This document shows positions 1,510-39,092 of a DNA stretch of 64,000 nt, in pieces; within the stretch, counting starts at the first letter, position 1, and every line of letters begins with the position of its first letter. Both the position numbers and the translations under genes were made by a program. The notes below the pieces were generated by a model, which saw nothing but the letters and a program-made list of their open reading frames with translations, was not told where the DNA came from and made no database searches. The DNA comes from Methylopila sp. Yamaguchi (GTDB lineage: Bacteria; Pseudomonadota; Alphaproteobacteria; Rhizobiales; Methylopilaceae). The DNA is taken from assembly GCF_002897035.1 (NCBI RefSeq), contig NZ_BAUX01000011.1:1-64000 (forward strand), read 5' to 3'.

Positions 1510-2841
1510 TCAGCTCCGGAGCGTATCGATGAAGCGCACGGGCTCGCCCGTTCCCGGCGCGAGGATCTCGCTCTCCCACATCACCCGGCGTCCGCGAAGA
1601 ATGGTTCCCACCGGCCAGCCCTGCACCGACACCCCGTCGTAAGGGGTCCACTGGCTCCGTGAGCCGATCCAGCCGTTCGTGATCGTCTCCCGCCGCTTGA
1701 GGTCGACCACGGTGACGTCCGCGTCGTAGCCCACGGCGAGACGGCCCTTGGTCGCGATGCCGAAGATGCGCGCGGGCCCCGCGCTGGTGAGGTCCACGAA
1801 CCGCGCCAGGCTGAGGCGGCCGGCGGCGACGTGATCGAGCATGATCGGCACCAGCGTCTGCACGCCGGTCATGCCGGAAGGGCTGTCGGGATAGGTCTTG
1901 GCCTTCTCCTCCAGCGTGTGGGGCGCATGGTCGGAGCCCAGCACATCGACGACGCCCTGGTGCAGGCCCCACCAGATCCCGGCGCGGTGGGCGTCGTCGC
2001 GCACCGGCGGGTTCATCTGCGCGCGGGTGCCGAGCCGCGCATAGGCGTCGGAGCCCAGGGTGAGATGGTGCGGGGTGGTCTCGACCGTCGCCACGTCCTT
2101 GAAGTCGGCGAGATAGCGCATCTCCTCGGCCGTGGAGATGTGCAGCACGTGGACCTTCGCGCCGTGCTCGCGGGCGATGGTCGTCAGCCGCCTGGTGCAC
2201 TTCAGCGCCGCTTCCGCGTCGCGCCACACGGGGTGGCTGGACGGATCGCCGGCGACCCGCTCGCCCTTGCGCTCCGAGAGGCGCGGCTCGTCCTCGGAAT
2301 GGACCGAGACCCGACGGCGGGTGCGCTTCAGGATCTCGCCCACGCCCACGTCGTCCGACACCAGCAGCGAGCCGGTGGACGAGCCCATGAAGATCTTGAT
2401 GCCGGCGGCGCCGGGCAGGCGCTCCAGCTCGGCGACGTCCCTCGCATTGTCGTGGGTGCCGCCGACGAAGAAGGCGTGGTCGCAGTGCATGCGGCCCTTC
2501 GCGCGGGCGAGCTTGTCGGCCAGCGCCTCGGGGGTGACGGTGAGCGGGTTGGTGTTCGGCATCTCGAACACCGCCGTCACGCCACCGAGCACGGCTGCGC
2601 GCGAGCCCGTCTCGAGGTCCTCTTTGTGAGTCGCCCCCGGCTCGCGGAAATGCACCTGCGTGTCGATCACGCCCGGCAGCAGGTGAAGCCCCGCGCAGTC
2701 AACCACCTCGCCGGCGGAGGCCGCCCCGAGATCGCCGATCGCGGCCACGCGGCCAGCGCGTACGCCGAGATCGGCGCGGCGCTCGCCGTCCTGGTTGACC
2801 ACGGTCCCGCCTTTGAGCAGGAGGTCGAAGGTCTCGGACAT
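1510..2841 (-). CDS. pyrC: Dihydroorotase (AllB/PyrC-like amidohydrolase)
   Basis: This 443-residue enzyme closes N-carbamoyl-aspartate to dihydroorotate in pyrimidine synthesis. Amidohydrolase landmarks are clear: DTQVHFREPG (residues 60-69), the carboxylated-lysine segment GIKIFMGSSTG, metal-binding histidines in VSVHSEDE and VHVLHIST, and the catalytic aspartate in GSDHAPH. The first metal motif reads Q-V-H instead of the usual H-V-H. From memory this variant occurs in alphaproteobacterial dihydroorotases, so it may be lineage-wide rather than a defect. The start at MSETFD gives the usual family length. The open frame further upstream is antisense to ygfZ. It is transcribed divergently from ygfZ across about 90 bases. 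Confidence 0.85.
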   Translation of the reverse strand: MSETFDLLLKGGTVVNQDGERRADLGVRAGRVAAIGDLGAASAGEVVDCAGLHLLPGVIDTQVHFREPGATHKEDLETGSRAAVLGGVTAVFEMPNTNPLTVTPEALADKLARAKGRMHCDHAFFVGGTHDNARDVAELERLPGAAGIKIFMGSSTGSLLVSDDVGVGEILKRTRRRVSVHSEDEPRLSERKGERVAGDPSSHPVWRDAEAALKCTRRLTTIAREHGAKVHVLHISTAEEMRYLADFKDVATVETTPHHLTLGSDAYARLGTRAQMNPPVRDDAHRAGIWWGLHQGVVDVLGSDHAPHTLEEKAKTYPDSPSGMTGVQTLVPIMLDHVAAGRLSLARFVDLTSAGPARIFGIATKGRLAVGYDADVTVVDLKRRETITNGWIGSRSQWTPYDGVSVQGWPVGTILRGRRVMWESEILAPGTGEPVRFIDTLRS

Positions 2842-35799: not shown

Positions 35800-36891
35800 A
35801 TGTCCCCGCTCGCGCCCCTTCCGCCCACCTTGCTCGACCGCTTCGAAGCCGCCGGCTTCGCGCGCGCCGAACCCCGGATCCTGCAGCCGGCGGAGCCGTT
35901 CCTCCATGTCATGGGCGAGGAGCTGCGCACCCGCATGTTCCTCACCGCCGACGCGGACGGGCGCGACCTCTGCCTTCGGCCGGACTTTACCATTCCCGTC
36001 GCGCTTCAGCACATCGCCGGCGGCGACCCCGGCCGCGCGCAGTCCTATTTCTACGCCGGCCCGATCTTCCGCCAGACGCGCTCGGGGCCGAGCGAGATCG
36101 CCCAGGCCGGCGTCGAAAGCTTCGGCCGGCCGGACGGCCTCGCCGCCGAGACCGAGATCCTTGCGCTGGCGCTCGAGGCCGCCGCGGCGCTTGGCGCGCC
36201 CGAGCCGTCGATCCAGCTCGGCGACCTCGCCCTGCTCGACGCCGCTGTCGAGGCGCTCGAAGCCCCGTCCGCGCTGCGCCGCCGCCTGAAGCGCGAGATC
36301 GCCTATGGCGAGACGCTGGACGCTCTCAACGCGCCGCCGCCGGCCCGCGCGGCGCACGCGGGCCTCTTCGGCGCGCTCGACGCCGCCGGCCCCGACGCCG
36401 CCCGGGCCGTGGTGGAGGACCTGCTTTCGCTCGCCGGCATCGCGACTGTCGGCGGACGCACGCCGGGCGAGATCGCCGAGCGCTTCATCGAGCAGAACGC
36501 AGCCCGTTCCGCCGCGCGCCTGCCGGCCGTCCAGCGCAAGGCCCTGCAGGATTTCCTCGCGGTGGACGACCTCGCCCGCGCGGCGGAGGCGCGGCTCGGC
36601 GCGCTCGCCCGCGAGGGCCTCGCAATCGGGCCCGCCGTCGAGGCGCTCGGCCGGCGGCTCGACGCCTTCGCGGACGCGGGGTTGCCGGTCGACCGCATGC
36701 GGTTCTCGACCCGCTTCGGCCGCAGGCTGGACTACTACACGGGCCTCGTGTTCGAGCTCGGCCGCCCCGGCGCCCCGGGGCCGCTTGCGGGCGGCGGTCG
36801 TTACGACGGCCTCTTGACCGCGCTCGGCGCCACGCGTCCAGCGCCCGGCGTCGGCTTCGCCCTGTGGCTCGACCGCTTCCCCGGAGCCTGA
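35800..36891 (+). CDS. hisZ: ATP phosphoribosyltransferase regulatory subunit HisZ
   Basis: The 363-residue protein is a paralogue of histidyl-tRNA synthetase without the tRNA-binding domain. It has the class II motif 2/3 region ([33 protein letters not shown]) and a late [14 protein letters not shown] and [12 protein letters not shown], as in HisZ. It binds HisG to form the first enzyme of histidine synthesis and gives feedback control. ATG 35800 fits the family N-terminus ([14 protein letters not shown]). The stop is five bases before hisG, so the genes are cotranscribed. The upstream 236 bases are divergent with tmm and relatively A+T-rich near 35640-35680. Confidence 0.93.
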
Positions 36892-36896
36892 CGCCC

Positions 36897-37901
36897 ATGT
36901 CCGGACCGCTGATCCTCGCCGTTCCCTCGAAGGGCCGCCTGCAGGAGAACGCGCACGCCTTCTTCGCGCGCGCCGGCCTCAACTTCGTGCAGCCCGGCGG
37001 CGCGCGCGACTATCGCGGCGCGATCGCGGACGTACCGAACGTGGAGATCGCCTATCTCTCCGCCTCCGACATCGCCGGCCAGCTCGCGAGCGGCGCCGTC
37101 CATCTCGGCGTCACGGGCGAGGACCTCGTCCGCGAGGAGATCCCGGACGCGGCGGCGCGGGTGAAGCTGCTGCAGCCGCTTGGCTTCGGCTACGCCAACG
37201 TGGTGGTGGCCGTGCCCAAGGCCTGGATCGACGTCTCGACCATGGCCGACCTCGACGATGTCGCAGCGGACATGCAGCGCCGCCATGGCCGGCGGCTGCG
37301 GGTCGCGACCAAGTACGTCAACCTGGTGCGCAACTTCTTCGCCTGGACGGAGCCCGGCGACCGCCGGGGGGCGCGCACCAGCGTCTCGAACTATCGGATC
37401 GTGGAGAGTCTGGGCGCGACTGAGGGGGCGCCGGCCGCAGGCGTGGCCGACATCGTGGTCGACATCACCACCACCGGCGCCACGTTGGAAGCCAACGCGC
37501 TCAAGGTGCTTGAAGACGGCGTCATGCTGCGGAGCCAGGCGCAGCTCGTCGCGAGTCTCGGCGCGGACTGGAACGACGGCGCCCGCGCCGCGGTGCGAAC
37601 CATCCTCACGCGGATCGCAGCGGAGGTCCGCGCGCGCGAGGTCCGCGAGATCCGATGCCGCTTCGATGAGGGCGTGGGCAGGACGCTGGTCGATCTCGCC
37701 GCGCGCTACGACGCGCGCGCGCCGTTCGGGCCGCCTCCGCCTGGAACGCCACTTGTGCTGCATGCCCCGAAGAAGGCCGTGTTCGCCCTGGTCGAAGCGC
37801 TCGCCGCGGCGGGCGCCGGCACGATCACCGTCGCGACGCTGGAGGACGTGTTCGAACCCAATCCGCGACTGGTCACGGACCTGTTCGGCGCGCTGGGCTG
37901 A
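36897..37901 (+). CDS. hisG: ATP phosphoribosyltransferase catalytic subunit HisG (long form)
   Basis: The 334-residue enzyme makes phosphoribosyl-ATP, the first step of histidine synthesis. The opening [19 protein letters not shown] and the PRPP region [18 protein letters not shown] are clear. It is longer than the roughly 230 residues of typical HisZ-dependent HisG proteins. The C-terminal 75 or so residues ([34 protein letters not shown]) resemble the ACT-like HisG_C regulatory domain of the long form. It is nonetheless paired with hisZ five bases upstream. The start ATG is well placed and the gene ends in a hairpin-rich stretch. Confidence 0.92.
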
Positions 37902-38008
37902 AAATAGAAAGGGCGGAACCGCTTCGGGGGTAGCGGTTCCGCCCTCAAAAGGCCTGCCGGTCGGGGGAGCCAGCGGCCAGTCGAAAAGCTCGGGGGAAGC
38001 TTTCGGGG
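37902..38008 (-). ncRNA. Candidate small RNA with three hairpins carrying CCCCCGA loops
   Basis: Read leftward, about 105 bases fold into three consecutive hairpins. The first is a stem CGAAAGCT/AGCTTTTCG with loop TCCCCCG (near 38005-37982). The second is GGCCGCTGG/CCGGCAGGCC with loop CTCCCCCGA (near 37974-37951). The last is a 14-bp stem (37945-37932 and 37923-37910) with loop ACCCCCGA, followed by TTTCTATTTT, a good terminator. A possible -10 (TACGTTAT, 38018-38011) lies just upstream. Repeated C-rich loops resemble anti-Shine-Dalgarno loops of alphaproteobacterial sRNAs. The gene is inferred from structure alone, and it could instead be the hisG or hydrolase 3' end. Confidence 0.4.
37910..37945. 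terminator. Strong hairpin terminator downstream of hisG
   Basis: This is a perfect 14-bp stem AGGGCGGAACCGCT / AGCGGTTCCGCCCT with an 8-base loop. On the minus strand it is followed by TTTCTATTTT, so it is a canonical terminator for leftward transcription. On the plus strand it follows the hisG stop by nine bases but lacks a T-run. Confidence 0.8.
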
Positions 38009-38192
38009 ACATAACGTAGGGGCCGCCCCCTGGTTCCACGGTCCACGAACTTTTTTGGATTTGTTGGAGCGCTGTCGCTCAAAACGTCATCCGTGCGCTC
38101 AACGACCCGATCGGGCCGACGGTCGAGGCCCTCCCGATCGCCGGGAACGCAGATCGCGCTTGCAAAGATCCGCCGAGCGGGGATGCCGCCCC

Positions 38193-39092
38193 CTATGTGG
38201 GCGGGACGGCCGCCCCGAGGTGGCTTTCGAGAAACGCGATCGTGCGGTCCCAGGCGAGGTTCGCGGCCTTGCGCTCGTACCGCGCGGGGTTGGCGTCGTT
38301 GTTGAAGGCGTGGTTCGCGCCCTCGTACATGTAGAGTTCGAACTCCTTTTCGTTCGCCTGCAGCGCCTTCTGGAACGCCGGCGCCCCGGCGTTGATGCGC
38401 TCGTCGAGCCCGGCGTAGTGAAGCTGCAATGCGGCCTTGACCTGCGGCACCCGATCGTCGGCCAGGGGCTGCCCGTAGTAGACGACGGCGGCCTTGAGGT
38501 CCGGCGCAACGGCGGCGAGGCGGTTCGCCATGCCGCCGCCCCAGCAGAAGCCGAGCGCGCCGACGGCGCCATTCGAATCCGGGCGCGCGGCTAGAACGGG
38601 CAGCGCCGCGGCGAGCGTGGCGGCGGTCTTGTCCAGGTCGAGCTTGCCGATCATCTCGCGCGCAGCGTCTTCGTCCGCCGGCGTCCCGCCCAGCGGCGAC
38701 AGCAGGTCGACCCCGTAGGCGAGGAAGCCCGACACCGCGAGCCGTCGCGTGACGTCCTGGATGTGCGGGTTGAGGCCACGGTTCTCGTGGATGACGATCA
38801 CCGTCGGACGCTTGGCCTCGCGCCGTCCCTTGGCGAGGAGGCCGGAGACCGGGCCGTCGGGGCCGGGAAAGGACAGGGTCTCCGTCACAATCCGCTTGTC
38901 GTCGGGGGCGACGATCTGGGCTTGGGCGTAGTCGTTCGACAAGGCGCCCAGGAGCGCCTGCGCCGCCGCCGTAGAGCCAGCAAGCAGCGCCAGCCTCTCC
39001 ATAAACCCACGACGGTCGAGATCGCCATGGGTGTAGCGATCATAGAGGGCGATGGCCTTCGGATCGGGGCGCGGGGGCATGGCGTCGCTCAC
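38193..39092 (-). CDS. Dienelactone hydrolase family protein
   Basis: The 299-residue α/β-hydrolase has an N-terminal part with DLDRRGFMERLALLAGSTAAAQ, a twin-arginine-like export signal, so it may act in the periplasm. The catalytic triad of dienelactone hydrolases is visible: Cys in GFCWGGGMANRL, an acidic residue in the GLDERIN strand, and His in YEGANHAFNN. The conserved Glu that activates the Cys is in IHENRGLNPHI. Such proteins open lactone rings in chlorocatechol degradation, but many homologues have unknown esterase substrates. It is transcribed alone. Confidence 0.85.
   Translation of the reverse strand: MSDAMPPRPDPKAIALYDRYTHGDLDRRGFMERLALLAGSTAAAQALLGALSNDYAQAQIVAPDDKRIVTETLSFPGPDGPVSGLLAKGRREAKRPTVIVIHENRGLNPHIQDVTRRLAVSGFLAYGVDLLSPLGGTPADEDAAREMIGKLDLDKTAATLAAALPVLAARPDSNGAVGALGFCWGGGMANRLAAVAPDLKAAVVYYGQPLADDRVPQVKAALQLHYAGLDERINAGAPAFQKALQANEKEFELYMYEGANHAFNNDANPARYERKAANLAWDRTIAFLESHLGAAVPPT

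Follow-up and report, generated by a model that had tools for sequence, protein, structure and literature searches.

A conserved predicted small RNA gene with an EcfG-type promoter and repeated C-rich loops between hisG and a dienelactone hydrolase gene in Methylopila and its close relatives

As far as the accessible parts of the literature go, few small RNAs have been tied directly to the general stress response (GSR) of the Alphaproteobacteria, GsrN and ReC64 being the examples. GsrN of Caulobacter crescentus is driven by SigT and uses a C-rich loop to pair with G-rich mRNA; it is stabilised by Hfq and processed to a 5' form of 51 to 54 nt (PMC5869019). According to the available sections of that report, BLASTn found GsrN in the Caulobacteraceae only, and outside that family it was sought by its proximity to ecfG-nepR-phyR, to which C. 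crescentus is itself an exception (PMC5869019). The SigT promoter search of Tien et al. asked for GGAAC and CGTT spaced 15 to 17 bases, as given in the same excerpts (PMC5869019), and the EcfG consensus appears in the accessible part of another source as GAAC-N16,17-C/GGTT (PMC4814048). Another design is that of NfeR1, which the available text describes as blocking translation through three redundant anti-Shine-Dalgarno loops (PMC10746234).

We analyzed a 64,000-nt stretch of the genome of Methylopila sp. Yamaguchi, referred to here as the window. Between hisG and a dienelactone hydrolase gene it contains a conserved gene for a predicted non-coding small RNA, which is real by the sequence tests available (Table 1). 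A sequence-only reading of this DNA had described three hairpins, read leftward, with CCCCCGA loops and a terminator with its tail, and that sequence is indeed on the minus strand, with CCCCCGA at 37990-37996, 37961-37967, and 37924-37930. Three same-strand copies within 80 nt, as here within 73 nt, occurred in 0 of 200 simulated windows; the whole window holds 11 copies on both strands, where first-order Markov simulations give 21.6 on average. The region 38012-37900 folds with -56.3 kcal/mol, whereas shuffles average -34.2 (z, -6.7) and none of 200 did as well. The placement of CCCCCGA in all three loops needs some correction, since in the minimum-energy fold the unpaired part of hairpin 1 is CCCCC only and the C run of hairpin 2 is partly, if weakly, paired. 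For the terminator, the 14 bp of that reading agree with the 13-genome consensus; the minimum-energy fold extends the stem to 15 bp. Among 937 perfect Watson-Crick hairpins in 375 kb of DNA from the same genome (stem of at least 7, loop of 4 to 10, so that the imperfect hairpins 1 and 2 are not counted), a CCCCC loop is present in one, the terminator of this RNA. Judging from the promoter position, the 5' end probably lies near 38005-38008. An RNA reaching to 38018, as first proposed, would begin with promoter sequence, the -10 box CGTT occupying 38016-38013. The earlier view that no coding frame explains the region is supported, in that the 13 sequences, taken between the same cut points, are 112 to 118 nt long and differ by insertions and deletions that are not multiples of three.

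Table 1. Features of the predicted small RNA gene and its surroundings (positions in the window)
Feature	Position	Strand	Basis or remark
Predicted small RNA, ~105 nt	37902..38007	-	start placed from the promoter
Hairpin 1, loop CCCCC	37984..38004	-	fold and 13-genome alignment
Hairpin 2, carries CUCCCCCGAC	37951..37978	-	13-genome alignment
Hairpin 3, intrinsic terminator, loop ACCCCCGA	37909..37946	-	fold and alignment
U-rich tail UUUCUAUUUU	37901..37910	-	last base overlaps the hisG stop codon (other strand)
hisG, convergent neighbor	36864..37901	+	HisG found in 10 of 13 3-kb loci
Dienelactone hydrolase family gene, upstream neighbor	38193..39092	-	match in 12 of 13 loci
-35 box GGAAC, EcfG/SigT-type	38033..38037	-	GGAACC in 13 of 13 genomes
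-10 box CGTT	38013..38016	-	16 nt after GGAAC
A/T tract upstream of the -35 box	38044..38062	-	run of at least 5 A or T in 13 of 13 genomes

The RNA gene was present in all 13 examined genomes of its genus group (Methylopila/Hansschlegelia/Chenggangzhangella), with both promoter boxes intact in each. BLASTN gave matches in 13 of 101 genomes, 12 from the genus group and, outside it, G018, whose match is 27 nt long and lacks the promoter. A covariance model, R1, recovered 13 of 13 genus genomes at E values of 3.6e-20 or better, including the one that BLASTN had missed (G006). Over the 397 genomes searched with R1, Infernal's stricter filters lose weak matches, such that distant relatives may be missed; the 384 other genomes of the order yielded eight borderline matches (E, 1e-4 to 1e-2), and no EcfG-type promoter stands ahead of the RNA at any of those eight loci. 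Five other genomes of the family gave no match with either BLASTN or the model. The exact terminator pattern retrieved 10 records from a named genome collection (84,980 species), all 10 with the promoter: Methylopila capsulata, M. jiangsuensis, M. turkensis, an uncultured Methylopila, Hansschlegelia beijingensis, H. quercus, H. zhihuaiae, H. plantiphila, Chenggangzhangella methanolivorans, and a record named Chelatococcus sambhunathii S14. All are among the 13 genus genomes already counted. The Chelatococcus record (L023) groups with Methylopila/Hansschlegelia, and its species name may be wrong. The HisG of the Yamaguchi strain is 99% identical to that of M. capsulata (G010), and the dienelactone hydrolase match in the M. 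jiangsuensis locus is only 43% identical. The inspection of weak matches covered all eight from outside and two second ones inside the genus group. Genome G012 also has a hairpin (L051 1501-1594, minus strand) with a CCCCCCGA loop, a GC-rich stem, and no EcfG-type promoter in the locus. In a sister-genus genome (G015, L105), the convergent hisG and hydrolase genes come within about 30 bases of each other, measured from matched end to matched end, which leaves no room for the RNA. Both a gain in the Methylopila/Hansschlegelia/Chenggangzhangella genus and a loss in the sister genus are compatible with this distribution.

One of the borderline matches lies in a genome from another family of the order (L046 1501-1600, plus strand, genome G125; E, 0.0033). 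It shows a plain hairpin, then one with CCCCCGAC, and then a terminator with the loop CUCCCCCGA, on stems unrelated to those of the window RNA. The locus has 46% GC and no EcfG-type promoter, and an open frame of 110 codons immediately precedes the match; in a genome of this kind, a pair of CCCCCGA copies on one strand within 60 nt would be expected about 0.28 times. L046 could be a relative, a convergent design, or chance over 384 genomes. Another of the eight, L044 (genome G346, 1515-1640, plus strand), was rejected as a relative, its EcfG-type motif lying inside the model match and before two other C-loop hairpins. At that locus, the motif is followed by two C-rich-loop hairpins and a T run (fold z, -6.6), and the stretch was matched in only 1 of 60 genomes of its family, namely, itself.

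A search of the window against Rfam 15, which the sequence-only reading had proposed, assigned no family, with 0 matches at the curated threshold. When E values up to 10 were admitted for 37880-38060, 15 matches appeared, all below threshold, the best being mir-3180 at 21.9 bits (threshold 99), followed by others such as SR6 at 21.8 (55), Pxr at 19.6 (80), and BjrC80 at 17.4 (80). The open-access literature gave no small RNA report naming Methylopila or Hansschlegelia. On this sequence evidence, the predicted small RNA gene is absent from Rfam 15 and so far unlisted.

Conservation and stem covariation in relatives had been set beforehand as a check on the three-hairpin structure; both were found, and the attempted refutation failed. 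The alignment comprises one sequence from each of the 13 genomes, with none dropped, and 97.3% of its cells pair. Eight of the 31 stem pairs changed on both sides, a number reached by 1 of 500 shuffles, and the covariation score of 0.233 exceeded that of the shuffles (0.161; 0 of 500 as high) and of all six slid versions, with the caveat that relatedness alone can beat shuffles. Further pair types, at 20 versus 18.7, were not above the shuffles (118 of 500 as high). The version slid by +3 also had seven both-sided pairs, but with 49% of cells paired versus 97%. Most of the covariation signal comes from hairpin 2, where five of nine stem pairs changed on both sides. Its CCCCCGAC is invariant in 13 of 13 genomes, as is the CCCCCGA of hairpin 3. 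The idea of selection on all three loops thus holds for hairpins 2 and 3 but does not extend to hairpin 1, whose C loop is found only in the Yamaguchi strain, M. capsulata, and G007 (3 of 13). Six of the other 10 genomes have GCAA there, and the loop columns have a mean identity of 0.49. Three C loops are therefore a trait of one subclade and two a trait of the family.

The promoter was not among the points of the earlier reading. Column identity over the 13 genomes is 1.00 for both boxes, 0.57 for the spacer, and 0.52 for the 60 nt upstream, and exactly one GGAACC-N15-CGTT precedes the RNA in each genome. A single GGAAC-N-CGTT match means little, because the window has four matches to GGAAC-N15..18-CGTT versus 1.7 expected, and 9 of 100 shuffles had as many. 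In the genome as a whole the motif is over-represented, GGAAC-N16/17-CGTT giving 80 matches versus 30 for the reversed pattern, and it also precedes the first nepR (nepR-ecfG). The Yamaguchi strain has two separate PhyR/NepR/ECF-sigma sets, at L028 4979-7873 (contig C5) and L029 6789-9144 (contig C16); both NepR proteins exceed the Pfam cut-off and fall below the NCBIfam cut-off, and the sigma factors are labeled EcfG by their position beside nepR. The A/T tract upstream of the -35 box is a possible UP element. The RNA is apparently switched on by the general-stress sigma factor EcfG/SigT.

We propose, with good though not complete confidence, that the RNA is a trans-acting antisense small RNA of the general stress response, driven by EcfG and binding UCGGGGG near ribosome-binding sites. 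Under stress, PhyR would free EcfG from NepR, and EcfG would transcribe the RNA from its own GGAAC-N16-CGTT promoter until transcription stops at the third hairpin. The C-rich seeds would then be exposed: the CCCCCGAC of hairpin 2, the CCCCCGA of the terminator loop, and, in one subclade, a third in hairpin 1. We infer that these seeds would pair with UCGGGGG stretches of mRNAs, most likely at ribosome-binding regions, and that the pairing would repress or, for some targets, activate translation.

The Yamaguchi genome has UCGGGGG 3 to 13 bases before an ATG at 67 places versus 12 for the reversed string, which is no proof of enrichment. The loci analyzed contained 71 distinct spacings between site and start, 36 of them with an open frame of at least 70 codons, and 25 rows passed the GC3 filter; about a dozen of the matches look like true starts. 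Target conservation was judged from the matches listed (without G005, G001, and part of G007), 21 stretches of relatives, and the loci of these matches. Among the matches listed, several sites are kept in M. capsulata or G007, two genomes too closely related for this to be informative. In the Yamaguchi strain, M. capsulata, and the more distant H. quercus (G003), UCGGGGGA precedes the ATG of a PEGA-domain lipoprotein gene; the H. quercus protein is 68% identical, and the PEGA match is marginal, at 21.4 bits versus a cut-off of 20.8. In the leader UCGGGGGAA, the G run ends 11 bases before ATG in the Yamaguchi strain and 7 in H. quercus, the leaders being otherwise diverged, and the M. capsulata leader has UCGGGGGAU at 11 bases before ATG. 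With about a dozen sites per genome, the chance of one shared orthologue is estimated at a few percent, and the lipoprotein gene is therefore a candidate target, a lead and not proof. Genes for a protoglobin chemoreceptor and a solute-binding protein are other candidates. The duplex energy of a candidate leader, calculated with internal structure ignored, showed no separation from shuffles (-53.2 versus a mean of -52.4). katG was rejected as a target, UCGGGGG being found in 0 of 10 katG upstream regions (300 nt). The gene is absent from 3 of the 13 genus genomes; the Yamaguchi katG has GGGGGG without UC at -143, and the other nine have no such G run upstream.

The same promoter boxes, the similar length, and the C-rich loop would also suit a true GsrN orthologue that has diverged beyond recognition, with one ancestral EcfG-driven C-loop RNA across the Alphaproteobacteria. 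Indeed, the accessible part of the GsrN report shows at least three partner sites containing GUCGGGGG, the complement of the hairpin 2 loop core of the window RNA (PMC5869019). Against it, the RNA lies away from the GSR loci, on a different contig, and it lacks a katG site; the five other family genomes gave no match and the order gave borderline ones only; and, in the available text, the BLASTn matches of GsrN are restricted to the Caulobacteraceae (PMC5869019). The combination of promoter and CCCCCGAC occurs in 7 of 385 class genomes, the Yamaguchi strain included, versus 16 for a reversed control; with the control higher, the six other genomes were taken as chance. One finding that does favor orthology is a GsrN-like candidate with CUCCCCCGC in another family, 1.3 kb from nepR (L128 2931, minus strand, genome G131). 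Of 290 class genomes, 59 yielded NepR, and among 30 NepR loci scanned, those of the Yamaguchi strain included, only L128 had an EcfG-type motif followed by at least five C within 75 nt. In L128 the motif is followed by sequence containing CUCCCCCGCAUUCCCC and by a GC-rich hairpin with a T run after it. On balance, we consider orthology with GsrN unlikely.

Less probable still is that the hairpins are nothing more than the terminator stretch where hisG and the hydrolase gene converge, with no regulatory role. A conserved promoter of the RNA's own behind the hydrolase gene argues against this, as do the invariant loop cores on changing stems, the lack of a plus-strand U tract following the hairpin, and the retention of the structure in the 3 of 13 genomes where HisG is absent from the 3-kb locus. 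The location between convergent genes is as expected of such a region, the third hairpin is a minus-strand terminator, and the L046 loops, which closely follow a small open frame and have no EcfG-type promoter, resemble an mRNA 3' end. CsrB and RsmY are protein-titrating RNAs with GGA loops, and such RNAs, too, typically carry one short loop motif several times on separate stems. The C-rich loops might thus act as a sponge for a protein or a G-rich small RNA without any mRNA pairing. We regard this as the least probable of the readings; both experimentally studied analogues, GsrN and NfeR1, act by pairing according to the accessible parts of their descriptions. Antisense action within the stress response is the reading that we prefer.

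On the origin of the gene we are more tentative. It may represent a new small-RNA family that originated in a single genus, in the interval separating hisG from the hydrolase gene, joining GsrN's switch, the general-stress sigma factor, to the multi-loop seeds of the "cuckoo" RNAs discussed below, with the third seed loop a recent addition in one subclade. Because L046 stays unexplained, we lowered our estimate for an origin within one genus from an even chance to slightly less. If that reading is true, the locus would show redundant seeds in the course of accumulating. The gene has a promoter that can be tested, a simple seed, and an alignment of 13 relatives. The presence of one seed loop in only 3 of 13 genomes makes the value of seed redundancy testable on natural variants, and the sister-genus genome in which the flanking genes almost touch, without the RNA, makes the origin of the gene approachable.

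The RNA is filed as neither GsrN nor alpha-r14, because the alpha-r14 motif is absent, the gene does not sit at the stress locus, and UCGGGGG is missing from all 10 katG leaders. Compared by the published description of GsrN, in its accessible part, the two RNAs share a GGAAC...CGTT promoter, a length of about 100 nt, and a 3' terminator; a C-rich loop, exposed in GsrN, is predicted to be so here too. All 13 genomes have GGAAC followed by CGTT at 16 nt. A single C-rich loop, with six C, lies in the 5' part of GsrN, whereas the window RNA has two conserved ones, one of them the terminator loop, and no katG site. In the 5' part, CCCCCGAC (about nt 41 to 48) is invariant, and the 5'-most hairpin has its C loop in 3 of 13 genomes. 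The RNA is on contig C11, and the nepR genes are on C5 and C16. ReC64 of Rhizobium etli, likened here by description, is a non-coding RNA under direct EcfG control, the kind of control predicted for the window RNA; unlike the window RNA, it lies in the ecfG1-phyR region (PMC3892343, available part). The likeness to anti-Shine-Dalgarno small RNAs that the first reading drew stands as a shared design and not as membership, CCUCCUCCC being absent from the RNA (one copy in the window, at 537-545) and Rfam giving no match. The accessible descriptions of NfeR1/alpha-r14 and of the "cuckoo" RNAs SmelA075/SmelA099 show a comparable plan of three (or four) hairpins with one C-rich motif on differing stems, linked to stress, but the loop is CCUCCUCCC in each hairpin versus CCCCCGA(C) here, and NfeR1 is reported under LsrB and NtrC, in contrast to the EcfG-type promoter of the window RNA (PMC10746234, PMC3927594). 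In the Yamaguchi strain all three hairpins have the C-rich motif; in 10 of the 13 genomes two of them do. By analogy with these systems, the predicted RNA combines GsrN's kind of promoter with NfeR1's design.
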